The notes beneath the pieces were generated by a model, which was not told where the DNA came from, searched no databases, and saw nothing but the letters and a program-made list of their open reading frames with translations. Shown here in pieces: positions 10,332 through 22,446 of a stretch of DNA of 23,551 nt. Each line of letters begins with the position of its first letter. The stretch's first letter is position 1. Position numbers and translations under genes: made by a program. Source of the DNA: a virus; IMG/VR virus record IMGVR_UViG_3300021962_000669, positions 1-23,551 of that record. The stretch is one strand, 5' to 3'.

Positions 10332-10375
10332 AGGGGTGGGCAATTCTGTCGCACCCCTTAAAACCCCTTATTTTT
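10332..10375 (+). terminator. probable intrinsic terminator after the sugar cassette
   Basis: A GC-rich stem AGGGGTG (10332-10338) pairs perfectly with CACCCCT (10352-10358) across a 13-base loop. A second copy of the right arm, ACCCCT (10363-10368), is followed at once by TATTTTT, so the left arm can pair with either copy, and the second pairing puts the U tract in place. It is the only GC-rich patch here and separates the dehydrogenase from the next promoter. Confidence 0.55.
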
Positions 10376-10401: not shown

Positions 10402-10436
10402 TTGACATATTGCTAGAACCTGGTAATCTAGCTATA
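10402..10436 (+). promoter_or_regulatory. sigma-70-like promoter, leaderless, for gene 10436
   Basis: TTGACA (10402-10407), a 16-base spacer and an extended TGG-TAATCT (-10 at 10424-10429) lie only 6 bases before the ATG at 10436. Transcription would start at about the A of the ATG. There is no ribosome site. A 6-bp inverted repeat GCTAGA/TCTAGC (10412-10417 and 10427-10432) overlaps spacer and -10 and could be an operator. The promoter shares CCTG-R-TA and ATATG with the one at 17197. Confidence 0.65.
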
Positions 10437-11020
10437 TGATTAAAAGTCAGAAATCAGTTCTTGCAAAAAAAGATGTATTGACAGACAACGCAAGACATAA
10501 CCAATTACAATACATCAAAAATACATCTAAAAGTGTTCGCAGACAACATAATAAACGAGTTGTTGAAAACGAAATTTTAGATTATTATGATACTGGTGAT
10601 TCTTGGTCACCTATTCAAAAACAATCTAACAATTTCCATGTTGTTTATCACAGAGGATATGATGATCCTGAAGATGGTTATTTTGAGAACTCTTGGACTG
10701 TTTTTAGAAATGTACCATTTAGTTTCAAAAGATTACAAACTCTTTTAAACAAAAAGAACACAATAAAGAAATATTGTGATCGAAAATATGAAGAATATGA
10801 CAGAGTAAAACCTGTTAATTATGTTCGTAGTAGGGTTTCAATAATCTATGATGATGAATATTATATGACATATAATGACAAATTTGGTAGTGATTTATAT
10901 GGTGCAGATGGTTATTACTATGATTATGGTCAAAAACACGATTTTATGTTGAAATATGATTTTGGTCATTATTGTCGCACCTATAAAAAAGAGATTGACA
11001 ATGTACAGAAAGTGTGTTAG
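10436..11020 (+). CDS. unknown 194-residue basic, Tyr-rich protein
   Basis: I do not recognise this family. The N-terminal 45 residues are rich in Lys, Arg and Asn (for example KSVRRQHNKRVV), suggesting contact with nucleic acid. The C-terminal half is strikingly Tyr/Asp-rich (YGADGYYYDYGQ near 152-163). There is no signal or membrane segment. It is the first gene after the terminator and has its own leaderless promoter, so it is probably expressed early, possibly as a host-takeover protein. That role is inference from position only. Confidence 0.7.
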   Translation: MIKSQKSVLAKKDVLTDNARHNQLQYIKNTSKSVRRQHNKRVVENEILDYYDTGDSWSPIQKQSNNFHVVYHRGYDDPEDGYFENSWTVFRNVPFSFKRLQTLLNKKNTIKKYCDRKYEEYDRVKPVNYVRSRVSIIYDDEYYMTYNDKFGSDLYGADGYYYDYGQKHDFMLKYDFGHYCRTYKKEIDNVQKVC

Positions 11021-11030
11021 AGTTTAGATA
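10995..11030 (+). promoter_or_regulatory. sigma-70-like promoter, leaderless, for the sigma-4-like gene
   Basis: TTGACA (10995-11000) inside the end of the previous gene, a 17-base spacer, then extended TGT-TAGAGT (-10 at 11018-11023). Exactly 6 bases separate it from the ATG at 11030, the same spacing as at 10436, 17231 and 21757. The -10 matches the consensus at 4 of 6 bases. Confidence 0.5.
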
Positions 11031-11302
11031 TGATTTATTTTGATAGTGAAATTAACAATCCAATAAGTGTTGCTAGAGATATCATTAAAGAATGTAAAAT
11101 ATCTCTTTATACAAACAAAGAACCTTCTTCTTACAGAAATCAATTAATGACTGTTTTTGAAGAAAGAGTTATTAAAAACAAAACTCTCAAGCAAGTTGCC
11201 AATTTGTTAAATCTTAAATCTTCCGAAAGAGTTAGACAAATTGAATTCAGATTATTAAGAATTTTAAAACATCACATGAGAGATATTAGAAAGATATATT
11301 AA
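11030..11302 (+). CDS. sigma-70 region 4-like (HTH) small protein
   Basis: This 90-residue protein has a C-terminal half that reads as sigma-70 region 4, the helix-turn-helix that recognises the -35 element and binds the RNA polymerase beta flap. FEERVIKNKTLKQVANLLNL leads into SSERVRQIEFRLLRIL (64-79), where ERVRQIE is the hallmark of the recognition helix. Regions 1-3 are absent, so it cannot be a complete sigma factor. It may bind the flap or -35 DNA as a co-sigma or anti-sigma-like regulator of host polymerase. Its own gene has a near-consensus -35 and a leaderless start. Together with the gp33-like gene at 23172, the window encodes two candidate polymerase-binding factors. Confidence 0.75.
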   Translation: MIYFDSEINNPISVARDIIKECKISLYTNKEPSSYRNQLMTVFEERVIKNKTLKQVANLLNLKSSERVRQIEFRLLRILKHHMRDIRKIY

Positions 11303-11304
11303 TT

Positions 11305-11508
11305 ATGATAGCAGAAATTATGACACTAGAAAACATGAAGAAACTGATTGATGTTTCTGATGAACTTAGAGAAGATAACGCCAGAGATTGGAAACAGAAA
11401 TACGATTTATTAGTAGGTGCAATCAGAGGTTTAGAAGATCACCTAGAAAGACAGTTTGCTGAAATGGAAGCACAATACGAAAAAGAACACGGAGGTTCAA
11501 TACATTAA
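11305..11508 (+). CDS. small coiled-coil protein, unknown
   Basis: This is a 67-residue acidic protein, almost wholly helical in appearance, with heptad-like spacing of Leu/Ile (EDHLERQFAEMEAQYEKE near 44-61). There is no signal or membrane segment and the family is not recognised. It begins 2 bases after the sigma-4-like gene and its stop overlaps the next ATG (TAATG), so it belongs to the same transcript. An internal ATG at 11320 is an alternative start. Confidence 0.65.
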   Translation: MIAEIMTLENMKKLIDVSDELREDNARDWKQKYDLLVGAIRGLEDHLERQFAEMEAQYEKEHGGSIH

Positions 11509-11804
11509 TGAATAAGTTAGAATATGCTCAGTTTAAATTAGAAGATTACGAACCAAGTCCATATAGAAATTATTTGGTTTCTTGGGCAGATAGATGTTAC
11601 CAATTATACTGCAATGGTAAAATACAAAATGAACAATATGGTTCAGAGGTACTTGCAGGTTGTGATGAAGTTGGTAAATACTTTACAAAATTTTTATCGC
11701 AAGACATGAAAAAAGATCAAAACTTTGATGTTTTATTAGATGATCTGATGTTATTTGTCGATGAAAACAACGCAAAACTTGCCGCTTGGGCATTAGTGAG
11801 ATAG
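11508..11804 (+). CDS. unknown 98-residue protein
   Basis: This is a soluble, acidic protein with no recognised domain. It has a Trp/Tyr/Cys patch (WADRCYQLYCNG, near 26-37) and a Leu/Asp-rich helix (DVLLDDLMLFVDE). The start is fixed by the one-base overlap with the preceding stop. It lies in the run of small genes behind the 10402 and 10995 promoters. Confidence 0.65.
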   Translation: MNKLEYAQFKLEDYEPSPYRNYLVSWADRCYQLYCNGKIQNEQYGSEVLAGCDEVGKYFTKFLSQDMKKDQNFDVLLDDLMLFVDENNAKLAAWALVR

Positions 11805-11812
11805 GAGAAACT

Positions 11813-11992
11813 ATGATTAAATTCTTTTTTATTGTGTCGGGTATTTCAATGATTTCAACAATAGGTTTTATCAATGAACTGGGCGATACAAATTGGGCAT
11901 ATGTTGCCCTATCAGCATTTATAGGTGTATCATTCTTTATATTTGCTATAATTACAATGATACAGAAAGATAATGAACTTGACAATGAATAA
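11813..11992 (+). CDS. small two-helix membrane protein
   Basis: This is a 59-residue protein with two hydrophobic segments (about 2-20 and 27-48, the latter including VALSAFIGVSFFIFAII) and a charged tail (QKDNELDNE), giving an inner-membrane hairpin. I chose the ATG at 11813 because GGAGAAA lies 5-10 bases upstream; an in-frame TTG at 11786 would add nine residues overlapping the previous gene. Function is unknown. Small phage membrane proteins of this kind include superinfection-immunity and lysis-control factors, but nothing here tells which. Confidence 0.65.
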   Translation: MIKFFFIVSGISMISTIGFINELGDTNWAYVALSAFIGVSFFIFAIITMIQKDNELDNE

Positions 11993-12140
11993 AAAAACTG
12001 ATACAGTAAAATACAAATATACACATATTACAAATATATTAAAACAAAAATATGGTTGGATTCAGATTCCATTAATAACAAAAGATTCTGTTATTGTGAC
12101 AGAGTGGGAAGGTGAACCAATTAAAACAGTTAAAATATAA
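11985..12140 (+). CDS. 51-residue unknown protein
   Basis: This short gene begins with an ATG 8 bases before the upstream stop and ends in a TAATG overlap with the next gene. The product is basic at the start (MNKKTDTVKYKY) and then strand-like (GWIQIPLITKDSVIVTEW). The family is not recognised. Support is the gapless fit between two genes that would otherwise leave about 150 bases empty. Confidence 0.6.
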   Translation: MNKKTDTVKYKYTHITNILKQKYGWIQIPLITKDSVIVTEWEGEPIKTVKI

Positions 12141-12478
12141 TGGGATTAATTTATATTCGACATAAAACAAAAAAGAGAAACAGATTACCTTTAACTGATT
12201 CTCTTAAAAAAGCAAGAGAAGACCATGCAGAATATCTTAAATCTCTTGGCTATAAGAAAATACCAAAGTCAGAATATACTGCCTTTAATGATATCAACAC
12301 ATTGAACGCAGACAGAACAAGACAGACAGTTGTTGTTGAAAAAAGAACAGTTCCTCATATGGGTAACGGTGCGCCAAAAAGAAAAAGAATAGAACATAAC
12401 TTTACAGTGGCACCTGCATATAACAAAGGGGCATATCAAGTCATCAATAAAGATGATATCAAAGATATCGGGAGATAA
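12140..12478 (+). CDS. conserved-looking basic phage protein, unknown
   Basis: This is a 112-residue basic protein. The N-terminus is Lys/Arg-rich (RHKTKKRNR), and a mid-section PHMGNGAPKRKR is followed by a distinctive C-terminus, APAYNKGAYQVI then KDIGR. I associate this C-terminal block with a recurrent uncharacterised protein of marine and other phages, from memory only. There is no catalytic motif. The ATG overlaps the previous stop. The basic charge suggests nucleic-acid binding. Confidence 0.7.
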   Translation: MGLIYIRHKTKKRNRLPLTDSLKKAREDHAEYLKSLGYKKIPKSEYTAFNDINTLNADRTRQTVVVEKRTVPHMGNGAPKRKRIEHNFTVAPAYNKGAYQVINKDDIKDIGR

Positions 12479-12482
12479 TATT

Positions 12483-12707
12483 ATGAATAATTTGCAAGAA
12501 AGTTTTAGTGATTTACTCAATAGAACTTCAATTGAAAATGACCTAGAATTGCGATATTGGTCAGAAAAGTTTCGTGGTAAGATACCAAAAAGTGTGAAGA
12601 ACAGAATATCAAAATTAAAATACATTCTTTCATTACAGTATCAAGCAATGAAAGAACGAGAGAAAATCGAAAAAGAACAAAAACAAAAGGAGAGTGAAAA
12701 TGCCTAA
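12483..12707 (+). CDS. small helical charged protein, unknown
   Basis: This protein has 74 residues from the ATG at 12483, chosen because GGGAGA lies just upstream; an in-frame ATG at 12453 would run back into the previous gene. The C-terminal third is a long Glu/Lys/Gln helix (KEREKIEKEQKQKE), probably a coiled coil. The family is not recognised. It overlaps the Api92-like gene by 8 bases. Confidence 0.65.
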   Translation: MNNLQESFSDLLNRTSIENDLELRYWSEKFRGKIPKSVKNRISKLKYILSLQYQAMKEREKIEKEQKQKESENA

Positions 12708-13248
12708 TTGGTGTAGCAATAGTATTGAAATATCAGGTCCAAAAGAACAGATAGAAAAACTTTGGAATGTAGTTCAATCGTATGAGAGTGATGAAGGTAA
12801 AGGTTTATTAACTGCCATGTATCCAAATCCGTCAGGTGAATGGGATTATGGATGGTGTGTTGATAATTGGGGTACAAAGTGGGATGTTAACACTGAGGGT
12901 CTTGGATTAGTAAATGATGGTGAAAATGATTCTTCTATCACTGGTTATTTTGATAGTGCCTGGTCACCTCCAATTGGTGCATATGACAAATTCTTAGAAC
13001 AGAATCCAGATTGTAGTATATCGGCATCTTATGAAGAACCTGGTATGGATTTTGCAGGAGTATATGATAATGGTGAAGATCGTTATTTAGAAGGCATCTC
13101 CGAATATGCAGATGAAGTTATTAAAAACAATTTAGAAAAAAGTGATAATGAACTTTATAATGAATTAGATGATATCTATGATTTAACAGAACAAAGGCGT
13201 GAATGGTTAGAATTTAACGAGGAAGAGAATGAGGAAACCAATGTCTAA
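12700..13248 (+). CDS. Api92-like / DUF1281 ferredoxin-like-fold protein
   Basis: This is a 182-residue acidic protein. The opening MPNWCSNSIEISGP is the signature start of the Api92-like/DUF1281 phage family. Further along it has Trp- and Gly-rich stretches (GEWDYGWCVDNWGTKWDV) and a YFDSAWSPP segment typical of that family. The role of the family is unknown despite wide occurrence in phages and plasmids. I chose the ATG at 12700 (AGGAG at 12688-12692) over a GTG at 12694. The C-terminal tail is very acidic (EFNEEENEETNV). Confidence 0.75.
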   Translation: MPNWCSNSIEISGPKEQIEKLWNVVQSYESDEGKGLLTAMYPNPSGEWDYGWCVDNWGTKWDVNTEGLGLVNDGENDSSITGYFDSAWSPPIGAYDKFLEQNPDCSISASYEEPGMDFAGVYDNGEDRYLEGISEYADEVIKNNLEKSDNELYNELDDIYDLTEQRREWLEFNEEENEETNV

Positions 13249-13552
13249 AGATATCAAACCATTAGAGATGATTCATAATGAATGGAGAGAAATCAAAGAT
13301 GCTGATGTGGAAACAAAAATCAAATGGTTAAAGAAACATCAACGAATGGAATTACCATATGATATTCATTGGGAAAATCTGATTAAGTTTAATGAAACAG
13401 GTAACTGGCCAATAATTGTAAAACACAGATCAAACGAAGATGATTTATCTGATAGTGAAGAAAATCTCTATGAACAAATTATGGCAGATGATGTTGGTCT
13501 AACAGATGCAGAGGAAAGTTTAACAGATGAGGAACTTGAAGCTATTCTTTAG
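13241..13552 (+). CDS. acidic unknown protein
   Basis: This protein has 103 residues from the ATG at 13241, preceded by GAGGAAACC; an in-frame ATG at 13229 is possible. The N-terminal half is Trp/Lys-rich (IKWLKKHQRMELP), and the C-terminal half is strongly acidic (SNEDDLSDSEENL, TDEELEAIL). The family is not recognised. Its end overlaps the lipoprotein gene by 26 bases. Confidence 0.65.
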   Translation: MSKDIKPLEMIHNEWREIKDADVETKIKWLKKHQRMELPYDIHWENLIKFNETGNWPIIVKHRSNEDDLSDSEENLYEQIMADDVGLTDAEESLTDEELEAIL

Positions 13553-14018
13553 TATTATACTTGCAACAACTTTAATTAGTTGCTCACAGAATAGAAATGT
13601 ATCAAGTCATTTTGGTGCAGTTATTGGTGGTGCGAGTGCAGGTGCAACCTGTTATCAATTGATATCACAAAGTGCTCCTTTAGTTGCTACCTGTGCGGTT
13701 TTAGGAAGTTTTGCAGGTGCAGAATTGTTTTATAAATCAGATAGAAATGTACACAATGCAGTTTTTGTTGATCATTTAAATACAGCACCATCTAATCCAA
13801 GTTATGTAACCTGGTTTAATCCAAGAACAGGTAATAAAGGTGATATTAAAATCAATCGCTCTTATGTCACCGATACAGGAATGAAATGTTCTGATTATCA
13901 ATCGACAGTTGATATACAAACATCTTGGCCAATATCCGGACTTGATAGATCGACAGAATTTGGTATTGCATGTCAACACCCAGACGGAGTGTGGGAGGTA
14001 GTTGATGCGACATCTTAA
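13527..14018 (+). CDS. 17-kDa-surface-antigen-like lipoprotein
   Basis: This is a 163-residue exported protein. A signal sequence ends in a lipobox TLISC, with Cys19 as the lipidated residue. It is followed by a glycine-zipper pair (GAVIGGASAGA near 31-41; VLGSFAGAEL) that could span or insert into the outer membrane. The C-terminal domain has WFNPRTGNKGDI, a conserved KCSDYQ and GIACQHPDGVW. This order (glycine zipper, then a W.N..TG..G / C..Y / AC...DG.W domain) matches the rickettsial 17-kDa antigen family of alphaproteobacteria. It suggests capture from a host and a job in the infected cell's outer membrane, perhaps blocking superinfection. The role is inference. Confidence 0.75.
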   Translation: MRNLKLFFSIILATTLISCSQNRNVSSHFGAVIGGASAGATCYQLISQSAPLVATCAVLGSFAGAELFYKSDRNVHNAVFVDHLNTAPSNPSYVTWFNPRTGNKGDIKINRSYVTDTGMKCSDYQSTVDIQTSWPISGLDRSTEFGIACQHPDGVWEVVDATS

Positions 14019-14352
14019 AAATAGTTTCTTTTGGTATATTGTAACAATTGTTGTAGTGTACCTTGGAGTTTTGTTTTGGGGATTGATTGCTCAGGCAAAT
14101 GAAGTTCCTCATACAAAAAGTAATTGTGTGATTACACAAGAAATAGATCCTGATACTATGATCGTTTTACGAGAGAAAATGGTTTGTAGAGATGGATATA
14201 TCGGTCCTAGTTATTGGGAAATCTTTGCCCAATTCTATTATCGTAATGTTGATACACCTAGTTATTGTAGATATATCGACAGAGCAGACCATATATTTCA
14301 CACACCAGTGAAAGTATGTTTAAAAGAAAACGGAGAGTGGGTATATGATTAA
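14005..14352 (+). CDS. exported or membrane-anchored unknown protein
   Basis: This protein has 115 residues from the ATG at 14005, which follows GGGAGG by 6 bases. One hydrophobic segment (about 9-29, WYIVTIVVVYLGVLFWGLIA) is followed by AQANE, a plausible signal-peptidase site after AQA, so the remainder is periplasmic. The mature part has four Cys residues, enough for two disulfides. The family is not recognised. It sits between two lipoprotein genes and probably acts with them at the envelope. Confidence 0.65.
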   Translation: MRHLKNSFFWYIVTIVVVYLGVLFWGLIAQANEVPHTKSNCVITQEIDPDTMIVLREKMVCRDGYIGPSYWEIFAQFYYRNVDTPSYCRYIDRADHIFHTPVKVCLKENGEWVYD

Positions 14353-14446
14353 TTTTATATTTGGTGCAATTGTGGGTGGTTTTATAGTTTATATTAATCC
14401 TTCAATTGTAAATACTTTAATGAATATCGTAAAGGGGGTAATCTAA
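14345..14446 (+). CDS. 33-residue membrane peptide
   Basis: This tiny gene overlaps the previous stop by 8 bases and ends immediately before the ATG of the next lipoprotein gene. Residues 3-17 are hydrophobic (NFIFGAIVGGFIVYI), with a GxxxGG-like helix-packing pattern. GGAG lies 9 bases before its ATG. Function is unknown; the exact fit in an otherwise empty 94-base gap supports it. Confidence 0.5.
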   Translation: MINFIFGAIVGGFIVYINPSIVNTLMNIVKGVI

Positions 14447-15040
14447 ATGCGATACTTAATGATGATGATTCTTGCAATGTTTGTAGCTTCTTGTAGTTCT
14501 ACATATCAAGTTAAACAAGAATCAAGTGGTAATAATGAGATGCTAGAAGAAGTGCCAAAGTGGTTTGTAATGAAACCAACGAGTGATAACTTTCTCTATG
14601 GGGCTGGAGTTGCAACAAGTCCAGACTTAAATCTAGCAATTAAAAAGGCAAATCTAATTGCGAAAGCAGAGATTGCTGATGTGATCAATGGTGAAATGAA
14701 TGAACGAGCCACATATTTCTCAACTGAAGTGGGTAGAGATAAAAACAAAAGAACTGTTCAGGAGTTTGATAGAACTATTGTCAATGTGATAAAAAAGACT
14801 GCTGTCGTTGGATACGAAGTTGCAGAACAAGATATCTATACAACCGCATATGATGAATATAGAGTGTATTTACTATTAAAATTCTCATATGATGACCAGA
14901 ATAAGTTGTGGAATAAGATACTTGACGACAGTATCAGTCAGTTCAATACCGATTCTATTAGAGATAAAAATATTGACATGATTGATCAAGAATATATAGA
15001 TAGATATAATAAAATAATTCAACAAGAGGAATTAAACTAA
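14447..15040 (+). CDS. LPP20-family-like lipoprotein
   Basis: This is a 197-residue protein. The signal peptide has a lipobox FVASC with Cys16. The mature part opens with PKWFVMKP, then LYGAGVA and a helical AIKKANLIAKAEIADVI (about 64-80). This P.WF..P / GvG.A / A...A.A.ai pattern is characteristic of LPP20-like lipoproteins, which in bacteria sit in the outer membrane. The strong ribosome site GGGGG lies 7 bases before the ATG. It is the second lipoprotein of the island; a role in altering the infected cell surface is inference. Confidence 0.7.
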   Translation: MRYLMMMILAMFVASCSSTYQVKQESSGNNEMLEEVPKWFVMKPTSDNFLYGAGVATSPDLNLAIKKANLIAKAEIADVINGEMNERATYFSTEVGRDKNKRTVQEFDRTIVNVIKKTAVVGYEVAEQDIYTTAYDEYRVYLLLKFSYDDQNKLWNKILDDSISQFNTDSIRDKNIDMIDQEYIDRYNKIIQQEELN

Positions 15041-15041
15041 A

Positions 15042-15338
15042 GTGTCTATACAAGTATATACGAAACCGGGTTGCACCTATTGTGATCAAGCAAAAGCTTT
15101 ATTAAATAAGTGCAATCTACAATTTGAGGAATTTACTGTAGGTGTTCACATTTCAAAAGAAGAACTGATTGAACACCTTAAACGCAATGTAAAAACAGTA
15201 CCTCAAATTGTAATTGATAAAGAAGTAATAGGTGGTTTTAATCACCTAAAAGAATATTTACTAGATAAAGGTTATGTAAATTTTAAAGGAGAGGTTATTG
15301 CAAATAGAGAACGAGAAACAATACAATCAGATATATGA
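15042..15338 (+). CDS. glutaredoxin
   Basis: This is a 98-residue thioredoxin-fold protein. The active site is CTYC (Cys11, Cys14) in a KPGCTYC context, with the cis-proline loop TVPQI (52-56) and the glutathione-binding GGF after it. It can supply electrons to the phage NrdA/NrdB enzyme, as T4 NrdC does. It starts with GTG at 15042, two bases after the previous stop, with AGAGGA upstream. About 20 residues at the C-terminus extend beyond the fold and overlap the next small gene. Confidence 0.9.
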   Translation: MSIQVYTKPGCTYCDQAKALLNKCNLQFEEFTVGVHISKEELIEHLKRNVKTVPQIVIDKEVIGGFNHLKEYLLDKGYVNFKGEVIANRERETIQSDI

Positions 15339-15480
15339 AAAATACAAAATTTACAAACAAAAAGCATTTCAAAAAGAATTAAATTTAAATGGTATTATTG
15401 AATATTTTGAATTGCGAGAGATAGTAAAAGATTATGACAGCAGAAATAATAGACCTAAAAACAAAAAAACAATTAAATAA
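15298..15480 (+). CDS. small Lys-rich unknown protein, TTG start
   Basis: This is a 60-residue open frame with a TTG start. It is supported by a strong AGGAGAGG (15287-15294), whose GGAG is 6 bases before the TTG. The product is highly Lys/Tyr/Asn-rich and helical (KYKIYKQKAFQKEL). It overlaps glutaredoxin by 41 bases and the following gene by 47, unusually much on both sides. It is real if the TTG is used; otherwise this stretch is only the spacer between its neighbours. Confidence 0.45.
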   Translation: MQIENEKQYNQIYEKYKIYKQKAFQKELNLNGIIEYFELREIVKDYDSRNNRPKNKKTIK

Positions 15481-15847
15481 AAAATCTGAAATTGATGTCG
15501 ATAATCGTATGCTGGAACAACAATCCAGAGATTATGCTAATGCATTGGTTGATGATTACATGGTTCGTTTGATACACGAATTTCAATCAGAAGGTTTAGG
15601 TATTGGTTCTACTGAATGGCAAGATTCAAAGAAAACATTTAAAGAAATAGGTTTCTTTATTGAGGCTTTAAGAGCATTGATACATAAAGAATTTGATTTA
15701 AAACATCCTATGCATCAAATTATTGATAGAATGATGACAATAAAGTATGATAAAAGACAAAATAAATATTATTCACAAATACAGTATTATATTTCAAAAG
15801 ATAAAACAGAAAAAACTGTGGAATTTGAAGGCGAAGAATTAGAATGA
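15434..15847 (+). CDS. unknown 137-residue phage protein
   Basis: This is a soluble, helix-rich protein. A central amphipathic block includes FIEALRALIHKEF and then KHPMHQIIDRMM, a pattern I associate with small uncharacterised proteins of marine T4-like phages. The last 40 residues are strand-like and Lys/Glu-rich. No catalytic motif is visible. It overlaps RNase H by ATGA, which suggests a linked function in replication. Confidence 0.7.
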   Translation: MTAEIIDLKTKKQLNKKSEIDVDNRMLEQQSRDYANALVDDYMVRLIHEFQSEGLGIGSTEWQDSKKTFKEIGFFIEALRALIHKEFDLKHPMHQIIDRMMTIKYDKRQNKYYSQIQYYISKDKTEKTVEFEGEELE

Positions 15848-16680
15848 TTTTAGTTGATTTAAATCAAGTGATGATATCTAACTTGATGGCACAAGTTGGT
15901 AGAGATTCTGATATCAGTGAAGATTTAGTTCGACACATGGTATTAAACTCACTAAGAAGTTATAATACAAAGTTTAAAGATGAATATGGCGAAATTATAA
16001 TATGTTGTGATTCCAGACATTATTGGCGTAGAGAAGTATTTCCTAATTACAAATCAGGTAGAAAGAAAACAAGAGAAACTGATTCACATGATTGGGATAA
16101 TATCTTTACTATCTTTAATAAAGTGCGAGATGAACTCAAAGAACATATGCCTTACAAAGTTGTAGATGTTTATGGTGCAGAGGCCGATGATATCATTGCA
16201 ACTTTGGTTAAAAATTCAAAAGAAAAAGTCTTAATATTAAGTGGTGATAAAGACTTTATACAATTACAAAAATATGGTAATGTAAAACAATATGCACCCA
16301 TTCAAAAGAAATGGATTGATGGTGTGGATCCTAATAGATATATTAAAGAACATATATTAAAGGGTGATCGTGGTGACAGCATTCCAAACTTCTTATCACC
16401 TGATGATACTTTTATTAATAGTATTCGTCAAAAACCTATTAATAAGAAGAAGTTGGACTATTGGATTGATAGTGATCCAAAAGGTTTCTGTAATGAATAT
16501 CAATATAGAAATTTTCAACGAAATCAGCGCCTTGTTGATTTTGACTATATACCTAAAGAGGTAGAAGAAAATATTTTGTCAGAATATGAAAACATTAAAG
16601 TTTCAGGACGACATAAGATATTAAACTACTTTATTACAAATAGATTAAAAGACCTAATTGGTCAAATACAGGAGTTCTAA
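15844..16680 (+). CDS. rnh: RNase H / 5'-3' exonuclease, T4 type
   Basis: This is a 278-residue FEN-family nuclease that removes RNA primers and adjacent DNA from lagging-strand fragments. The metal-binding acids are in place: Asp5 (LVDLN), Asp56 (CCDSRHYWRRE), Glu113, Asp115 and Asp116 (GAEADDIIA), Asp135 and Asp137 (SGDKDF), and Asp175 and Asp178 (KGDRGDSIPN). The helical arch segment WRREVFPNYK is present, followed by the helix-hairpin-helix region. Length and motif spacing match T4 RNase H rather than bacterial RNase HI. The ATG overlaps the previous stop, and the next gene begins 2 bases after its end. Confidence 0.92.
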   Translation: MILVDLNQVMISNLMAQVGRDSDISEDLVRHMVLNSLRSYNTKFKDEYGEIIICCDSRHYWRREVFPNYKSGRKKTRETDSHDWDNIFTIFNKVRDELKEHMPYKVVDVYGAEADDIIATLVKNSKEKVLILSGDKDFIQLQKYGNVKQYAPIQKKWIDGVDPNRYIKEHILKGDRGDSIPNFLSPDDTFINSIRQKPINKKKLDYWIDSDPKGFCNEYQYRNFQRNQRLVDFDYIPKEVEENILSEYENIKVSGRHKILNYFITNRLKDLIGQIQEF

Positions 16681-16682
16681 AA

Positions 16683-17150
16683 ATGGCATTTGATGAAGAC
16701 GGAAAGTTTGGACCAACATTAACTTTCCACGAAATTTTAGTGAAAGTGAATAACGCTAAGGATAAACCTAAAAAGTTATCAGTATTAAAACATTACGACA
16801 CAGCAGAATTAAGAATGATTCTTAAAGCTGCATTTGATCCTAATATAGAATGGTTATTACCTGAAGGAAAACCACCATTCAAAGAAAATGAAGCACCAGA
16901 AGGTACTGAACATACTTATCTAAAACGAGAAGCAAGACGATTATATCATTTTATTAAAGGTGGTAATCCAAATCTATCACAGAATAAACGAGAAGCAATG
17001 TTTGTTCAGATACTAGAAGGATTGACAAAAGAAGAAGCAGACTTATTAATTTCAACGAAAGACAAAGAATTGAATAAAAAATATAAGGGTTTGACGGCAA
17101 ATCTAATTAAAGAAGCCTTTAATTGGAACGATTCTTTTATGAAAAAGTAA
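16683..17150 (+). CDS. DUF6433-like conserved phage protein
   Basis: This is a 155-residue protein without known activity. Diagnostic segments are LKAAFDPNIEWLLPEG (48-63), PPFKENEAPEGTEH and QNKREAMFVQILEGL. They match my memory of the DUF6433 family, found widely in T4-like cyanophages and marine relatives. It ends in a basic helix (KKYKGLTANLIKEAF). It directly follows RNase H, suggesting a replication or transcription accessory role. No catalytic residues can be named. Confidence 0.75.
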   Translation: MAFDEDGKFGPTLTFHEILVKVNNAKDKPKKLSVLKHYDTAELRMILKAAFDPNIEWLLPEGKPPFKENEAPEGTEHTYLKREARRLYHFIKGGNPNLSQNKREAMFVQILEGLTKEEADLLISTKDKELNKKYKGLTANLIKEAFNWNDSFMKK

Positions 17151-17196
17151 GTAAAATCAACACTTTTAGCTGCGACATTTTGGGCCAATTTTATCC

Positions 17197-17231
17197 TTGA
17201 CTTTTATTCATATCCTGATACATTATAGATA
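17197..17231 (+). promoter_or_regulatory. sigma-70-like promoter, leaderless, for gene 17231
   Basis: TTGACT (17197-17202), a 16-base spacer and extended TGA-TACATT (-10 at 17219-17224) lie 6 bases before the ATG. There is no ribosome site. Aligned without gaps to the 10402 promoter it shares ATCCTTGAC, CCTGRTA and ATATG. The rest of the 80-base gap (17151-17196) holds no gene; TTGGGCCAA there is too short for a terminator. Confidence 0.6.
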
Positions 17232-17467
17232 TGAAAAAAGAAAAATATAAGATAATTTACAAAAAACATGGTTCTAAAGTTTGGGACACATGGTCTGTTT
17301 ATTCATATAGAGAAGTGATTAAGGTTAAAGACCTTATGTTAAGTTCTTATATGTATTCTGATATTAAGATTTTTCACTATGATTTAGTGAAAAACATTGG
17401 AATGCCAAAGTGTGTTTTCAATGCAGTAGATTTAATTGACTTATATGATTTGAAAGAGGTTGCATAA
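17231..17467 (+). CDS. unknown 78-residue protein
   Basis: This is a basic, Tyr/Lys-rich protein (KYKIIYKKHGSKVWDTWSVYSYREV), probably alpha-beta, with no recognised family, signal or membrane segment. It is the first gene of the transcript from the promoter at 17197. Its translation would be leaderless. Its stop shares one base with the next ATG. Confidence 0.65.
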   Translation: MKKEKYKIIYKKHGSKVWDTWSVYSYREVIKVKDLMLSSYMYSDIKIFHYDLVKNIGMPKCVFNAVDLIDLYDLKEVA

Positions 17468-17676
17468 TGGGAAAAGTTAAAGAGTGGTTATATGATGAAG
17501 TTGAAAGTCAGATTGAAAAAGTCTGTCAGGCTTTTAAAGATGAGATTGTTACTAAAGATGAGGCAATCGATTCTATAATGAAAATTCAAAACATCGATGT
17601 TTGGATTGGTGATCAGATAGATTATTCTATTGCCGCCGAAATACTTGATGGTGAGATTGGTGGTGTTTATGCTTAA
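17467..17676 (+). CDS. unknown 69-residue acidic protein
   Basis: This is a small acidic helical protein (KEWLYDEVESQIEKVCQAF, then QNIDVWIGDQIDYSIAAEIL). The family is not recognised. The start overlaps the previous stop by one base and the next gene begins 8 bases before its end, consistent with translational coupling. Confidence 0.65.
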   Translation: MGKVKEWLYDEVESQIEKVCQAFKDEIVTKDEAIDSIMKIQNIDVWIGDQIDYSIAAEILDGEIGGVYA

Positions 17677-17884
17677 TTTTAAAGTAACTTGGTTATCTGG
17701 TTATGGTGATGCCGATGGTACATCTCAGGTTGTTTCATTTGAAGAAATGAAAGATTTTGGTTTAGATGCCTATATGGGTGATGATTGGGAAAGAGATTTC
17801 TTAATGTTAAATGTAGGTGAGGAATTACTTGTGAGTGGTCCTTGTGGGATTGAAGAAGTAAAATACGAAAGGTTGTCAATATGA
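17669..17884 (+). CDS. unknown 71-residue protein
   Basis: I chose the ATG at 17669; a longer in-frame reading from a TTG at 17630 would overlap the preceding gene by 47 bases and looks less natural. The protein is acidic and beta-rich (FKVTWLSGYGDADG near 4-17, and LNVGEELLVSGPCG). No family is recognised. Its stop overlaps the next ATG by ATGA. Confidence 0.65.
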   Translation: MLNFKVTWLSGYGDADGTSQVVSFEEMKDFGLDAYMGDDWERDFLMLNVGEELLVSGPCGIEEVKYERLSI

Positions 17885-18201
17885 ACGATTGGATTAAAAA
17901 TTCAGTAATGACAGCTATTATTTTAATTTTCTTTGTATTGTTTTGGGAATTTGCATTAAGTAAAAGTGCAAAGGCACAAACTTACAATGAGGCAGTTCTT
18001 GGTCATGTAATTACTGAGAACATTCGTGGTGGTATTGACAATCAAGCAGTCATGGAAGCAGAAATGCAACGTGCCGCTTATCTATTTGCAATACAGTCTA
18101 TTAACATATTAGAATCTTATTTACCTGCAATTTTAGATGGTGTCAAACGAGATATGCAGATAGTTGCAGAGGAAAAATATAAAGAGGTTCTAACCGATTA
18201 G
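17881..18201 (+). CDS. exported unknown protein
   Basis: This is a 106-residue protein. It has a typical signal sequence: Lys6, a hydrophobic core at about 9-26 (MTAIILIFFVLFWEFAL), then SKSAKAQ with a good cleavage site after AKA. The mature part is a mostly helical periplasmic domain (EMQRAAYLFAIQSINILESYL). No family is recognised. It is followed by a small membrane peptide and, two genes on, by an exported wall hydrolase, so a lysis-related or spanin-like role is conceivable. It has no lipobox, so it is not a classical o-spanin. Confidence 0.65.
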   Translation: MNDWIKNSVMTAIILIFFVLFWEFALSKSAKAQTYNEAVLGHVITENIRGGIDNQAVMEAEMQRAAYLFAIQSINILESYLPAILDGVKRDMQIVAEEKYKEVLTD

Positions 18202-18210
18202 GAGTATATT

Positions 18211-18324
18211 ATGACCTTGACAAATTTTTTATTATTTGCCAATTTAGCAACATTAGGATATATTGCATTAATGGTTTATGCAATTGGTGAGAAAATGAGT
18301 GAATATGACAAAAAAGAAAAGTAA
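18211..18324 (+). CDS. 37-residue single-span membrane peptide
   Basis: This is a short gene with a good ribosome site (GGAG, 6 bases before the ATG). Residues 5-25 form one hydrophobic helix (NFLLFANLATLGYIALMVYA), followed by a charged tail ending EYDKKEK. It occupies a gap of about 100 bases that would otherwise be empty. Its size and position next to the exported protein and the SleB-like hydrolase would suit a holin-like or regulator peptide, but that is speculation. Confidence 0.55.
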   Translation: MTLTNFLLFANLATLGYIALMVYAIGEKMSEYDKKEK

Positions 18325-18610
18325 AAAATTCAAAGACGAAGTACCTGAAATACCATTTACCTATGACTTCTATTTGGTGTATTGGGAAGATATTCAAAGT
18401 GATAGTGGTTGGCGAGATATGAAAGATATATTAGATTCTACACCCGCAACCTGTGTTTCTACTGGTTGGTTAGTAAGAGCTGATAGAAAAGTTCATGTTC
18501 TGATGAGTGATTACTCATATGATGATAAAAATGATTTATCTGATGGTGGTAATACTACTGTTATTCCGACAAAGAATGTTATTAAGAAATATAAGATTGA
18601 AGGCCTATGA
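18305..18610 (+). CDS. unknown 101-residue protein
   Basis: This soluble protein starts at the ATG at 18305; a GTG at 18299 would add two residues. After a basic start (MTKKKSKKFKDE) it has YDFYLVYWEDIQSDSGWRD (20-38) and ATCVSTGWLVRADRKV (48-63), then an acidic loop and VIPTKNVIKKYKI. The W.D..SDSGW / TCVSTGW pattern recurs in uncharacterised phage proteins as far as I remember. Function is unknown. It overlaps the membrane peptide and the wall hydrolase genes. Confidence 0.65.
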   Translation: MTKKKSKKFKDEVPEIPFTYDFYLVYWEDIQSDSGWRDMKDILDSTPATCVSTGWLVRADRKVHVLMSDYSYDDKNDLSDGGNTTVIPTKNVIKKYKIEGL

Positions 18611-19125
18611 ACGATCAGAAACCTTTAATGTTCTTTCTGATTTTAATTTTTACAATCCTTTGGTGGGGTTATGCAAAATCAGAAGTTATTGTTCCTAAAG
18701 ATAATGATTTACACTGTCTAGCACAAAACATTTATTTTGAGGCAAGAACAGAATCCGATGCAGGTCAAATCGCAGTTGGTCAAGTTGTTTTAAATCGTGT
18801 AGATCACCCTAGATATCCTAATAATGTTTGTGATGTAATTCGACAAGGTCCGACATATACATTTGATCCTGATTTTCCTGTAAGAAACAAGTGTCAGTTT
18901 AGTTGGTATTGTGATGGTAAATCTGATAATATAAAAAATGTTGAAGCATGGAATCATGCAAAAGCCATTGCAGGTATTCTTTTGGCATTACCAGATATGG
19001 TACCAAAAATTGTAGAAGATGCAACACATTACCATGCAGACTATGTAAAACCCCATTGGGCAGATCATTTAGAACGAGTTACAAGAATTGAATCACATAT
19101 ATTTTATAAAGTTATTGACAATTAA
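18607..19125 (+). CDS. SleB-family cell wall hydrolase, exported
   Basis: This is a 172-residue peptidoglycan hydrolase of the Hydrolase_2/SleB family. A hydrophobic N-terminal helix (about 8-22) would carry it to the membrane or periplasm. The catalytic domain begins LAQNIYFEART with the presumed catalytic Glu45, then GQIAVGQVVLNRV (53-65), CQFSWYCDG (96-104) and THYHADYVKPHW (140-151), all family hallmarks. It overlaps the previous gene by ATGA and is the last gene before the promoter at 19115. It is the first of two wall-degrading enzymes in the window and may be a signal-arrest-type endolysin or a remodelling enzyme. Confidence 0.88.
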   Translation: MNDQKPLMFFLILIFTILWWGYAKSEVIVPKDNDLHCLAQNIYFEARTESDAGQIAVGQVVLNRVDHPRYPNNVCDVIRQGPTYTFDPDFPVRNKCQFSWYCDGKSDNIKNVEAWNHAKAIAGILLALPDMVPKIVEDATHYHADYVKPHWADHLERVTRIESHIFYKVIDN

Positions 19126-19152
19126 TCAAAACTGTGATATAATACAAAATAA
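19115..19152 (+). promoter_or_regulatory. perfect sigma-70 consensus promoter, near-leaderless
   Basis: TTGACA (19115-19120), a 17-base spacer and extended TGA-TATAAT (-10 at 19138-19143) match the sigma-70 consensus at 12 of 12 bases. Only 8 bases separate the -10 from the ATG at 19152, and no ribosome site is present. The -35 overlaps the end of the SleB-like gene. The GTGATATAAT block is identical to that of the promoter at 21722. Confidence 0.8.
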
Positions 19153-19730
19153 TGAATATATTTTACTTAGATAGAGATCCTAAAAAATGTGCTGAAATGC
19201 ATTGTGACAAACATGTGGTGAAAATGATTGTTGAATATGCTCAAATACTTTCTACTGCTCACAGAATGTTAGACGGCACTAAATATATTGATACTTCCAA
19301 GAACGGAAGAAAAATTACAAGATATAAATTAAAAGATAACTTAGAAAACATTGTTTACAAAGCGTGCCATTTTAATCACCCTTCTACTGTTTGGGCAAGG
19401 ACTTCTTTTCAGCACTATCAGTGGTTGTATGAGTTGTGGCGTGAACTATCAGGAGAGTATCGACATCGATACGGAGGAAAAACAGGTAGAGATCACTCCA
19501 GCTGGACATTGCTCGGCGAAATTCTAAAATATACTCCTACAAACATAACACACAAAGGTTTTACAGAACCACCTCAAGCCATGAAAAAATATCCTGAATG
19601 TATGGTTGAAGGTGATTCTATACAGGCATATAAGAACTACTATATAATCGCAAAGAGTGAATTTGCAAAATGGACAAATCGACAGATTCCGGAATGGTAT
19701 ACAAATGGACTTGCAACAGAAATTATTTGA
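19152..19730 (+). CDS. recurrent unknown phage protein, His/Trp-rich
   Basis: This is a 192-residue soluble protein. I associate its start (MNIFYLDRDPKKCAEMHCDKHVVKMIVEYAQ in two blocks, 1-15 and 16-31) with a family common in marine phages, but I know no established function. Cys13, Cys18, His17 and His21, and later His43, His74 and His87, could bind a metal. The middle has CHFNHPSTVWAR and the C-terminal part EPPQAMKKYPEC, suggesting an enzyme pocket. It is transcribed from a perfect promoter with a near-leaderless start and overlaps the acyl carrier protein gene by 26 bases. Confidence 0.75.
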   Translation: MNIFYLDRDPKKCAEMHCDKHVVKMIVEYAQILSTAHRMLDGTKYIDTSKNGRKITRYKLKDNLENIVYKACHFNHPSTVWARTSFQHYQWLYELWRELSGEYRHRYGGKTGRDHSSWTLLGEILKYTPTNITHKGFTEPPQAMKKYPECMVEGDSIQAYKNYYIIAKSEFAKWTNRQIPEWYTNGLATEII

Positions 19731-19938
19731 AATAATAACACCCTATACTGAAGACGGTATTGAACTCAATTCTCATTTTATTGATGATTTGGGTTTTGAT
19801 AGTTTAACTGTTGTGGAATTTGTTATGCAATTAGAAGATGAGTTTAATATAGAAATTAATGATGATGAAGTGTCACAAATTGCTAGAGTACAAGATTCAT
19901 TAAACTTATTAAAAAGTAAATTAAATGCCAACATATAG
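19705..19938 (+). CDS. acyl carrier protein
   Basis: This is a 77-residue acidic four-helix protein. DDLGFDSLTVVEFVMQLE contains the DSL motif with Ser33, the site of 4'-phosphopantetheine attachment by host AcpS. Helix II is acidic (VEFVMQLEDEF), as needed to dock partner enzymes. I chose the ATG at 19705, preceded by GGAA; an in-frame GTG at 19657 would add residues unlike ACP. No acyl transferase, ketosynthase or ligase is recognisable in the window, so it probably diverts host acyl groups or partners with an unrecognised enzyme, perhaps the gene upstream. Confidence 0.85.
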   Translation: MDLQQKLFEIITPYTEDGIELNSHFIDDLGFDSLTVVEFVMQLEDEFNIEINDDEVSQIARVQDSLNLLKSKLNANI

Positions 19939-20230
19939 ATTTAAAAATCACAAGACAGGTGAAGTGTGGGAAGAACTGATGATGATTGCTGAAATGGAAG
20001 AGTTTAAAAAACAAAAACACATTGAACTCTTACCACCAACACAAATGAATATTGTTTCAAGTGTTGGTACAATTGATAGTAAAACCGACAATGGCTGGAA
20101 AGAGAATTTACAACGAATTGCAGCTGCTCATCCAGAATCACCATTGGCAGAACGTTATGGTTCGGGTGAAACAAATGCAAGAAAGAAGGCAAAAGAGATT
20201 GTTAAAAAGCATCGAGCAAGGAAATTATAA
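19925..20230 (+). CDS. small MPTY-type phage protein (FmdB-like start, no Cys)
   Basis: This is a 101-residue basic protein. The first strand MPTYRFKNHKTGEVWEE resembles the start of FmdB-type zinc ribbons and of small marine T4-like phage proteins, but it has no Cys, so it binds no zinc. A linker with SVGTIDSKTDNGWKENL leads to a basic tail (ARKKAKEIVKKHRARKL) suited to binding nucleic acid. It overlaps the ACP gene by 14 bases and precedes the phoH leader. Function is unknown. Confidence 0.7.
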   Translation: MPTYRFKNHKTGEVWEELMMIAEMEEFKKQKHIELLPPTQMNIVSSVGTIDSKTDNGWKENLQRIAAAHPESPLAERYGSGETNARKKAKEIVKKHRARKL

Positions 20231-20233
20231 ATA
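20226..20233 (+). promoter_or_regulatory. possible T4-type late promoter (TATAAATA)
   Basis: The octamer matches the T4 late -10 consensus exactly and overlaps the stop of the upstream gene. It would start a transcript near 20240 carrying the structured leader and phoH. In sequence this AT-rich a few such octamers are expected by chance, so only its position supports it. Confidence 0.35.
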
Positions 20234-20239
20234 ATTATG

Positions 20240-20358
20240 TATCTGTCTGAATAGATTAGAGAGCAAAAGTAGGGTTAACTATAGCCCAAAAGTCAGCTGG
20301 GACTGATCCAAGACTAGATAAAGGCCCAACTTATGTTGGGCCGCACTAAAGGATAAAC
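20240..20358 (+). promoter_or_regulatory. structured 5' leader of phoH
   Basis: This is the longest gene-free stretch near phoH. It holds three hairpins. Hairpin A: GGGTTA/TAGCCC (20272-20277, 20282-20287; one G-U pair). Hairpin B, in 20291-20306, can form as AGTC/GACT or TCAG/CTGA. Hairpin C is a perfect 8-bp stem GGCCCAAC/GTTGGGCC with loop TTAT (20323-20342). TTGGGC of C could instead pair with GCCCAA at 20284-20289, so two folds exclude each other. No U tract follows C, so it is not a simple terminator. AAGGA at 20349-20353 is the ribosome site for phoH. Confidence 0.5.
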
Positions 20359-21072
20359 ATGGCGAAAAAGAAACTTGAAATTACCGACAAAGAACTAGTC
20401 AATATTAAACCAATCACAGAAAATCAAAAAAGAATGGCAGAAGCCTGGAGAGCAGGTAAACATCTATTTTTATATGGTGTTGCAGGAACAGGTAAAACCT
20501 TTCTATCTTTATATCTTGCATTAAAAGAAGTCTTAAACGATAAGTCAGAACAACATCGAGTGTATCTTGTACGAAGTTTATTACCAACACGAGATATTGG
20601 TTTTCTTCCTGGTGATGAAGAAGATAAAGCGTTTCTTTATCAAATGCCATATCAAAACATGGTGCGTTTTATGTTTTCAGCACCAACCGAAACTGCTTTT
20701 GAAAGACTATATGTTGATTTAAGAAATCAAGGTACTATTGAATTTTTATCTACATCATTTCTCAGAGGTATTACAATTGATAATGGCATCATTATTGTTG
20801 ATGAGTGTCAGAATCTTAACTTCCATGAACTAGACACAATCATTACAAGAGTTGGTCAGAATAGTCGAATTATATTCTGTGGTGATTTTCAACAAACTGA
20901 TTTAAATAAGACCGCTGAGAGAAATGGTATCTATGATTTTCAGAGAATACTATTCGAAATGGGTGAGTTCGAAAATATCGAATTTGACCTAGGAGATATC
21001 GTAAGAAGTGGTTTCTTACGAAACTATTTAATTCAAAAAATAAAGTTAGGATTGCACTATGACCAGAGCTAA
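20359..21072 (+). CDS. phoH: PhoH-like ATPase
   Basis: This is a 237-residue P-loop ATPase of the PhoH family, widespread in marine phages. Walker A is GVAGTGKT (40-47), Walker B is IIIVDECQN (144-152, Asp148/Glu149), and GDFQQTD after it is the third helicase-like motif. It has only the core ATPase domain, with no PIN or KH domain, as is usual for phage copies. RNA-related ATPase or helicase activity is suspected for the family; the link to phosphate stress in phages is unproven. It is preceded by a structured leader and overlaps the next small gene by 14 bases. Confidence 0.93.
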   Translation: MAKKKLEITDKELVNIKPITENQKRMAEAWRAGKHLFLYGVAGTGKTFLSLYLALKEVLNDKSEQHRVYLVRSLLPTRDIGFLPGDEEDKAFLYQMPYQNMVRFMFSAPTETAFERLYVDLRNQGTIEFLSTSFLRGITIDNGIIIVDECQNLNFHELDTIITRVGQNSRIIFCGDFQQTDLNKTAERNGIYDFQRILFEMGEFENIEFDLGDIVRSGFLRNYLIQKIKLGLHYDQS

Positions 21073-21226
21073 AGAACTAAAACAACAACACAAATACTAC
21101 AAAAAGAAAGTTGAAGAAATTGAACAAGACAGAAATGTTGATCGTTCATCAGACTTATGGCGAATACTAAAAGAACATAAGAAACTTAAATTACACTATA
21201 AAACGGAGTTATTAAATGCAAAATAA
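21059..21226 (+). CDS. 55-residue coiled-coil protein
   Basis: This short gene overlaps the end of phoH by 14 bases and the start of the endolysin gene by 11. The product is very basic and helical (ELKQQHKYYKKKVEEIEQD, then LKEHKKLKLHYKTELL). The second helix resembles DUF465/YdcH-type small coiled coils, a weak similarity. The overlaps at both ends and the AT-free reading across the gap support translation. Confidence 0.6.
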   Translation: MTRAKELKQQHKYYKKKVEEIEQDRNVDRSSDLWRILKEHKKLKLHYKTELLNAK

Positions 21227-21725
21227 TTGGATTAAATGTTTAGAAACAATACTTCACCATGAAGGTGGGTATGTCAATCACCCCAAAGATCCTGGTGGTG
21301 AAACAAATTTAGGTGTCACTAAAAGAGTATATGAAGAATTTGGTGGTACTAAAGATATGAAAGATTTAACAAGAGAAGATGTAGAACCTATCTACAAAAA
21401 GAACTATTGGGATAGAGTAAAAGGTGACGATTTACCTGCAGGATTAGACCTATGTGTCTTTGACTTTGGTGTTAATGCTGGTACCGGTCGTGCTGCCAAA
21501 TATCTACAATCATTAATTGGTGCAACACCAGATGGTGGTATTGGTCCAAACACACTAAAAAAACTAAATGATTTTATTGAAGAAACTGGATTGACAGAAA
21601 CAATTCGACTTTACCAAGATGAAAGACAAAATTATTATGAATCATTGTCAACATTTGAAACATTTGGTAAAGGGTGGACAAGACGAGTAAAAGAAACTAC
21701 TGAACTAGCATTAGAATTAGTTTGA
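21216..21725 (+). CDS. GH108 endolysin (muramidase)
   Basis: This is a 169-residue glycoside hydrolase family 108 lysozyme that cuts the glycan strands of peptidoglycan during lysis. The catalytic Glu16 lies in HHEGGYVNHP, followed by the family signature DPGGETNLGVT (25-35). YWDRVKGDDLPAGLD and FDFGVNAGTGRAAKYLQ form the conserved core, and DGGIGPNT resembles a peptidoglycan-binding turn. There is no signal peptide, so it would need a holin; candidates are the membrane peptides at 11813, 14345 or 18211. CGGAG lies just upstream of the ATG. Confidence 0.92.
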   Translation: MQNNWIKCLETILHHEGGYVNHPKDPGGETNLGVTKRVYEEFGGTKDMKDLTREDVEPIYKKNYWDRVKGDDLPAGLDLCVFDFGVNAGTGRAAKYLQSLIGATPDGGIGPNTLKKLNDFIEETGLTETIRLYQDERQNYYESLSTFETFGKGWTRRVKETTELALELV

Positions 21726-21757
21726 CATTTGTGTCAAATTGTGATATAATTATATTA
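21721..21757 (+). promoter_or_regulatory. perfect sigma-70 promoter with palindromic operator, leaderless
   Basis: TTGACA (21722-21727), a 17-base spacer and extended TGA-TATAAT (-10 at 21745-21750) match the consensus fully. The ATG is 6 bases further, with no ribosome site. The -35 is one arm of a perfect inverted repeat, TTTGACA-TTTG-TGTCAAA (21721-21738), which could be an operator or, as RNA, a hairpin ending the lysin transcript. Confidence 0.8.
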
Positions 21758-22446
21758 TGTTTAATCATTTACCTAAAATTGAGTTTCCTGAACTCAAAGC
21801 AAAAAATATAGACGGAAAGAGATTCTATGAAAATCTGGAAACAAATCAGTCATATCCTTCAATTACAACTGTTCTTTCTATCAGAGATAAACAAGGATTA
21901 CACGAATGGCGTCAAAAGGTTGGTGACGAAGTGGCGAACTATATTGCTCGTACCTCCGCTAATCGTGGAACTGCTGTTCATAACATGGTTGAGGATTATC
22001 TCAACAATTTAGATAAAGAAGCATTAGACGAAAAACACAAGAAGAACTTCCATGCCTGGTGTATGTTTAACGAATTTAAACCTATCCTTAATAATATAAA
22101 TAATATTCATACACAGGAAGCACAAATGTTTTCTGAAAAATATACTGTCGCTGGTAGAGTTGACTGTATTGGTGAGTATGAAGGAAAACTGTCAGTAATA
22201 GATTTTAAGACATCTTCTGGTGAAAAGAAAGAAGAATGGATTAGTAATTACTTTATACAAGGCTCGGCATATGCAGAGATGTATGAAGAACTTACAGGCA
22301 CACCTATTGAACAAGTCGTTATTCTAGTGATTACATCTGATGGCTCAACCCAAGTATTCAAAAAGAATAAGAACGATTATCTACCACAATTAAAAGAGGC
22401 AGTAGAGAACTTTTACAAGTGGATAGAAAATGAAAAAACTAATTAG
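21757..22446 (+). CDS. PD-(D/E)XK exonuclease, RecB/MGME1-like
   Basis: This is a 229-residue nuclease. The RecB-type motif set is complete: RGTAVHNMVEDYL with His75, VAGRVDCIGEY with Asp136, LSVIDFKTS with Asp149 and Lys151, and the QxxxY motif Gln168-Tyr172. It resembles the single-strand exonuclease MGME1 and homologues common in marine T4-like phages. It probably processes DNA ends in recombination or host-genome degradation. It has its own consensus promoter and leaderless start, apart from the replication operon, and overlaps the next gene by 17 bases. Confidence 0.85.
   Translation: MFNHLPKIEFPELKAKNIDGKRFYENLETNQSYPSITTVLSIRDKQGLHEWRQKVGDEVANYIARTSANRGTAVHNMVEDYLNNLDKEALDEKHKKNFHAWCMFNEFKPILNNINNIHTQEAQMFSEKYTVAGRVDCIGEYEGKLSVIDFKTSSGEKKEEWISNYFIQGSAYAEMYEELTGTPIEQVVILVITSDGSTQVFKKNKNDYLPQLKEAVENFYKWIENEKTN

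Follow-up and report, generated by a model that had tools for sequence, protein, structure and literature searches.

The window analyzed here is a 23.5 kb IMG/VR fragment (record IMGVR_UViG_3300021962_000669, 23,551 nucleotides (nt)), in which five promoters stand so close to the ATG codons behind them that the transcripts are predicted to be leaderless or nearly so. Pelagibacter phage HTVC008M was identified by protein searches as the best isolate match for the proteins of the window (70% for PhoH and 69% for the exonuclease), and Methylophilales phage Melnitz and Pelagibacter phage Mosig were the next closest. The window is a pelagimyophage-like relative of phage T4. The five promoters and the genes that they precede are as follows.

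10402..10435, + strand: promoter TTGACA-N16(TGG)-TAATCT-agctat-ATG 10436, with an extended -10 element and 6 nt to the ATG.
10436..11020, + strand: predicted leaderless gene of 194 amino acids, beginning MIKSQKSVLAKKDVL, with an N-terminus conserved in the relatives L089 and L164.
10995..11029, + strand: promoter TTGACA-N17(TGT)-TAGAGT-ttagat-ATG 11030, with 6 nt to the ATG.
11030..11302, + strand: predicted leaderless gene of 90 amino acids, sigma-70 region-4-like (Pfam PF04545, E 1.8e-5).
17197..17230, + strand: promoter TTGACT-N16(TGA)-TACATT-atagat-ATG 17231, with 6 nt to the ATG.
17231..17467, + strand: predicted leaderless gene of 78 amino acids with no assigned function.
19115..19151, + strand: promoter TTGACA-N17(TGA)-TATAAT-acaaaata-ATG 19152, with consensus boxes and 8 nt to the ATG.
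19152..19730, + strand: predicted near-leaderless gene of 192 amino acids, phrog_624 / pyrimidine-dimer glycosylase-like (Pyr_excise).
21722..21756, + strand: promoter TTGACA-N17(TGA)-TATAAT-tatatt-ATG 21757, with consensus boxes and 6 nt to the ATG.
21757..22446, + strand: predicted leaderless gene of 229 amino acids, a PD-(D/E)XK exonuclease (phrog_298).

These promoters had been proposed in a sequence-only reading of the window, and their positions, spacers and extended -10 elements were confirmed by direct inspection, as were the gaps of 6, 6, 6, 8 and 6 bases to the ATG. Two of them are perfect 12-of-12 matches to the sigma70 consensus and rank as the top two of the scanned region when both strands are considered. 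The promoter at 10995 overlaps the 3′ terminus of the preceding gene, which stops at 11020. It had also been claimed that the five sites lack a Shine-Dalgarno (SD) sequence while most other genes of the window have one; an SD core was found at 0 of 5 promoter genes versus 27 of 40 other starts, three of the 40 comparison positions being off by a few bases, which was judged to be without effect on the count. The pattern with a gap of exactly 6 nt was observed 4 times versus 0.19 expected from dinucleotide shuffles, and none of 100 shuffles reached 4. When gaps of 6 to 8 nt were allowed, 5 occurrences were observed versus 0.41 expected from dinucleotide-preserving shuffles. Chance alignment of promoter and ATG was ruled out by these shuffles and by the scrambled -35 controls given below. 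No open reading frame (ORF)-opening ATG lies within reach of the other + strand TTGAC/TAnnnT matches (1543, 10188 and 11979).

The late promoter design of T4, which consists of a TATAAATA -10 element and no -35 element, was not found at these positions, all five of which have a TTGAC -35 and a TAnnnT -10. The middle promoter design of T4, in which the MotA box TGCTTtA replaces the -35 element, was likewise not found, 5 of 5 sites having a canonical TTGAC -35. An intrinsic RNA element was rejected as an explanation, with no Rfam match anywhere in the window.

The spacing between promoter and start codon was then analyzed in about 160 loci from relatives plus HTVC008M (1.6 Mb, near-copies removed). 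The pattern TTGACN-N16..18-TAnnnT was used for the scan, and x was defined as the distance from the -10 element to the first ATG that opens an ORF with 40 codons or more. The distribution of x is bimodal, with a sharp spike at exactly 6 (38 dereplicated sites) and a broad mode at x = 19-35 (69 sites), and the trough at 12-18 lies ahead of the SD-led mode. The positions around the spike hold 12 sites in total for x = 0-5 and 7, 10 and 6 sites for x = 7, 8 and 9, respectively, and the background is about 1.7 sites per position versus 38 at 6 nt. When the -35 word was replaced by scrambled versions with unchanged composition, seven of them each yielded no more than one site (0 or 1) at x = 6; the eighth, TGACT, is unsuitable as a control because of its overlap with the real box. 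The absence of a 6-base excess among relatives had been named beforehand as the outcome that would refute the proposal. The excess was found, so the proposal was not refuted, and the exact spacing, far above the controls, supports a leaderless architecture and a distinct gene class.

The sites at x = 6 span 21 protein families and therefore do not represent one inherited gene. At this distance the start codon is ATG in 38 cases, GTG in 0 and TTG in 1. No SD core is present in the predicted leader at any of the 38 sites, compared with 44 of 69 sites at x = 19-35; within 18 nt upstream of the ATG, the corresponding numbers are 3 of 38 and 45 of 69. A T or C immediately precedes the ATG at 36 of 38 sites at x = 6 versus 41 of 69 at x = 19-35 (Fisher p 8e-5), and a TGN extended -10 element is found in 32 of 38 and 32 of 69 promoters, respectively. 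The missing SD, the pyrimidine at -1 and the ATG starts are as expected if transcription were to begin at the A of the AUG. The possibility that the 5′-AUG is simply a piece of the promoter consensus was rejected, since promoters located 19-35 nt from their ATG have no ATG at +1.

If the true starts were SD-led codons further in, the ATG near the promoter would be incidental. In-frame SD-led starts of this kind occur at 3 of the 38 sites at x = 6, which are ambiguous, and at several HTVC008M genes (87354, 89838), the internal ATG being 18-66 nt further in. Misplacement probably holds for this minority of sites. As a general explanation it is highly improbable: no internal SD-led ATG was seen for the five genes of the window, for which the window sites or near-copies were checked, and the families of 10436, 17231 and 21757 are homologous up to the first Met, which bears out the earlier statement that the N-termini look native. 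The annotated starts of HTVC008M (NC_020484) at 89857, 100690 and 133488 lie within or upstream of a promoter, and the ATG codons just past the -10 element (89878, 100702 and 133539) are the more likely starts. The leaderless arrangement would account for some annotated HTVC008M gene starts that lie upstream of the promoter. A possible dual-start design was noted in L166 (19377), L106 (2777), L110 (2858), L046 (17) and HTVC008M (89838), where a second, SD-led ATG lies in frame 21-27 nt past an ATG near the transcription start (as in MKKKGYIMN). At L092 8586, a 12-codon mini-ORF at x = 6 overlaps the SD of the next gene.

The promoters of the window were compared with those of their orthologs. 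The 10402 promoter is kept in L164 (7741) and L089 (335) with an altered sequence and an unchanged 6-nt gap, and the ortholog promoters of 17197 in L086, L087, L091, L096, L100 and L164 have 6 nt in every one. The gaps for the orthologs of 19115 are 8 or 9 nt in L008, L010, L019 and L066 and 6 nt in L072, L124 and L129. A leader of 1-2 nt is predicted for 19115 itself, which would make this gene near-leaderless rather than leaderless. The 21722 promoter is conserved among close relatives, with a longer leader in the HTVC008M clade.

The 6-base gap stays while the gene behind the promoter is exchanged. The promoter at 8335 of L164 has gtgtgttagagtttagatATG in common with the 10995 promoter but a different gene behind it. 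In L164 and other relatives a homologue of gene 11305 is located 6 nt behind the 10995-type promoter, whereas in the window this slot between the promoter and gene 11305 is taken by the sigma-like ORF 11030-11302. Because no gene intervenes between the promoter and the 11305 homologue in relatives, the ORF at 11030..11302 was apparently inserted. This ORF is rare in relatives (two weak matches) and is positioned exactly behind an existing leaderless promoter. The small gene beginning MSKVKEWL is second behind the 17231-type gene in the window, L087 and L100, where it has a GGAGG- or AGAGG-type SD; in L099, from which the 17231-type gene is missing, it is leaderless at 6 nt.

All near relatives have a promoter of a single type ahead of the exonuclease gene. 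In the clade of the window the ATG of this gene is 6 nt from the -10 element and there is no SD, whereas the HTVC008M clade and the neighbours of that clade have a gap of 22-33 nt after the same box, with AAGGA or GTGAG ahead of a homologous start. The exonuclease tree separates the two states, with support values of 99/97 for the SD-led clade and 80/82 for the leaderless clade. When a few deeper rows were included, five changes sufficed for four states, compared with 18 in shuffles.

HTVC008M is likewise bimodal: the gap is 7-13 nt at nine genes and 25-35 nt at several others. Its promoters include those at 93012, 100663, 118213, 133501 and 135022 (record coordinates). Some excess of the spacing over a reversed-pattern control was detected in Melnitz, Mosig and S-PM2, and none in T4 and Caulobacter phage Cr30. 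Several promoters of Melnitz and Mosig have leaders with an SD, and few extended -10 sites of the leaderless design are present in Mosig, which has the same host strain as HTVC008M. Across IMG/VR, among the matches listed for consensus extended -10 promoters, the fraction of ATGs that open an ORF is 66 of 94 at 6 nt and 20 of 86 at 14 nt; there were at least 120 matches for each spacing, and the comparison rests on the ORF-opening fraction. From the ORF-opening ATGs at 6 nt, leaderless genes behind strong promoters are therefore judged to be common in environmental viruses.

The isolates HTVC008M and Mosig infect SAR11 bacteria, which are a likely host group for the phage of the window. The 16S anti-SD is intact in SAR11 genomes (ACCTCCTTTCT), and an SD core is found in only 11% of SAR11 ORFs (genome stretches L374-L441), the phages being far richer in SD. 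In two of the three SAR11 genomes tested, -10-like boxes were weakly enriched at x = 5-7, and TTGAC promoters 4-13 nt from an ATG were not in excess in SAR11 genomes. Host habit as the sole cause was rejected on the basis of the lack of a TTGAC excess, the weakness of the -10 excess and the small number of such sites in Mosig. Leaderless initiation is probably within the repertoire of the host.

The low SD content of SAR11, the HTVC008M gaps of 7-13 nt and the short intergenic gaps of pelagimyophages (mean of about 21-25 base pairs in rows of Table 1 of PMC7029224) would all be consistent with plain genome compaction, in which promoters are pressed against starts, leaders are very short, initiation by the 30S subunit is ordinary and SD-independent, and no selection acts for an exact leaderless end. 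Compaction by itself is nevertheless unlikely: the distance is spiked at 6 rather than smeared over 0-12, a pyrimidine precedes the A, and a trough is found at 12-18.

The features described above are very probably those of sigma70-type promoters of a T4-like pelagimyophage that yield leaderless mRNAs as a compact promoter-ATG module. The five host-type extended -10 promoters would be used by the host RNA polymerase carrying a sigma70-type factor, and the first transcribed base would be the A of the ATG or lie 1-2 nt before it. The ribosome would then load on the 5′-terminal AUG without SD recognition. The promoter and the ATG would constitute a module behind which genes are exchanged with the 6-base gap retained, and a gene would gain or lose its SD depending on whether it is first behind the promoter. 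More tentatively, a leaderless cistron may be poorly translated from a read-through polycistronic RNA, and its expression would be tied to its own promoter. Two points weigh against the leaderless interpretation. The transcription start is deduced from the position of the box, and the distance from the -10 element at which sigma70 RNA polymerase initiates can be 6-9 nt. In addition, the HTVC008M gaps are mostly 7-13 nt and not 6 nt, so short leaders of 1-7 nt would be tolerated as well.

Insulation from read-through, with SD-less cistrons silent on polycistronic RNA, is an addition to the leaderless interpretation and not its opposite, and it is possible although somewhat doubtful. Three of the five genes begin 9-31 nt past an upstream stop without an SD, and the MSKVKEWL relatives are SD-bearing when second in an operon and SD-less when first; translational coupling over 9-31 nt could still permit read-through translation. 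The sequence-only reading had suggested that the leaderless genes are immune to a takeover of normal initiation, that is, that they evade a block imposed by phage or host. Leaderless mRNAs are generally known to use a distinct initiation route, and HTVC008M, Mosig and Melnitz encode the 30S protein S21 and an annotated translational repressor or regulator. This suggestion found no support and is very unlikely, since no takeover agent was seen in the window, most genes of the same phages are SD-led (27/40 in the window) and orthologs are SD-led in the sister clade. It is also rather unlikely that two parallel initiation modes constitute a programmed division in marine T4-like phages, in which leaderless initiation would be tied to promoter-proximal early genes and be selectively favoured or silenced at some stage of infection, for example, through the action of phage S21 or a repressor on SD-led mRNAs.

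Several neighbouring elements were recorded. Among words in the 80 nt that precede these promoters in relatives, TGTCGCAC(C), whichever its orientation, has the strongest enrichment (about 10-fold, a count due in part to shared descent). It could be a regulator box or a piece of a terminator; some copies form a hairpin (GGGGTG...CACCCC at about 10334-10356) and others form none. The copies are as follows.

10347-10354, 10973-10980 and 17171-17177 (reverse strand): copies of TGTCGCAC(C) in the window.
133436 and 89768: copies of TGTCGCAC(C) in HTVC008M.

A 128-base non-coding gap contains a strong hairpin, GGCCCAACttatGTTGGGCC, at 20323-20342. The SD of the PhoH gene (20359) follows shortly after it, and no Rfam family matched this hairpin above threshold. 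No match was obtained in protein family searches for the 194-amino acid protein of 10436..11020. A gp33-like late transcription regulator is predicted to be leaderless or near-leaderless in L120 (10453) and L146 (5974), with x = 6 and 7, respectively; the gp33-like regulator in the window (23172) has an SD and a TTG start.

The same proteins are leaderless in one clade and SD-led in its sister clade, and genes were exchanged behind a constant promoter-ATG module, which allows leaderless translation to be studied in a clean comparative setting. For marine phage genomes, the results suggest a need to predict gene starts with the help of promoters. The cI mRNA of phage lambda, transcribed from PRM, is a leaderless phage mRNA that begins at the AUG. 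The lambda cI gene and similar cases are single regulatory genes of temperate phages, whereas a class of replication/repair and small genes from many families is found here. The T4-like phages T4, Melnitz and Mosig have sigma70-type early promoters, which have the -35 and -10 elements in common with those of the window and are presumably used by host RNA polymerase as well. Unlike the window, T4 has no excess of the 6-base spacing, and several Melnitz and Mosig leaders contain an SD.

Leaderless initiation was first found in lambda (PMC3160421), and phage transcripts are stated to be often leaderless (PMC5312081). Leaderless genes with a TANNNT box are also known in many bacteria (PMC3160421); the gene class proposed earlier is supported, and such genes are not unique to phages. 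In the survey of pelagimyophages in PMC7029224, the prediction of middle and late promoters is stated to have failed, and neither "leaderless" nor "Shine-Dalgarno" is used there. A leaderless class was not found to have been described previously for these T4-like phages in the searchable literature. In the alphaproteobacterium Sinorhizobium meliloti, 171 transcription start sites were mapped on the A of the AUG (PMC3616915); the use of AUG only is shared with the genes described here, and a 5′ end at the A, mapped in that organism, is predicted for them. In the bacterial leaderless ("TA-led") signature, the first T of the TANNNT box is about 12 base pairs from the start (Zheng et al. 2011, PMC3160421). 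This distance, the missing SD and the AUG are all shared by the genes of the window, which differ in belonging to a lytic T4-like phage and in having a near-consensus -35 element and an extended -10 element. Leaderless genes are thus an established kind, phages included, and what is new is a systematic, modular class of them in marine T4-like phages.

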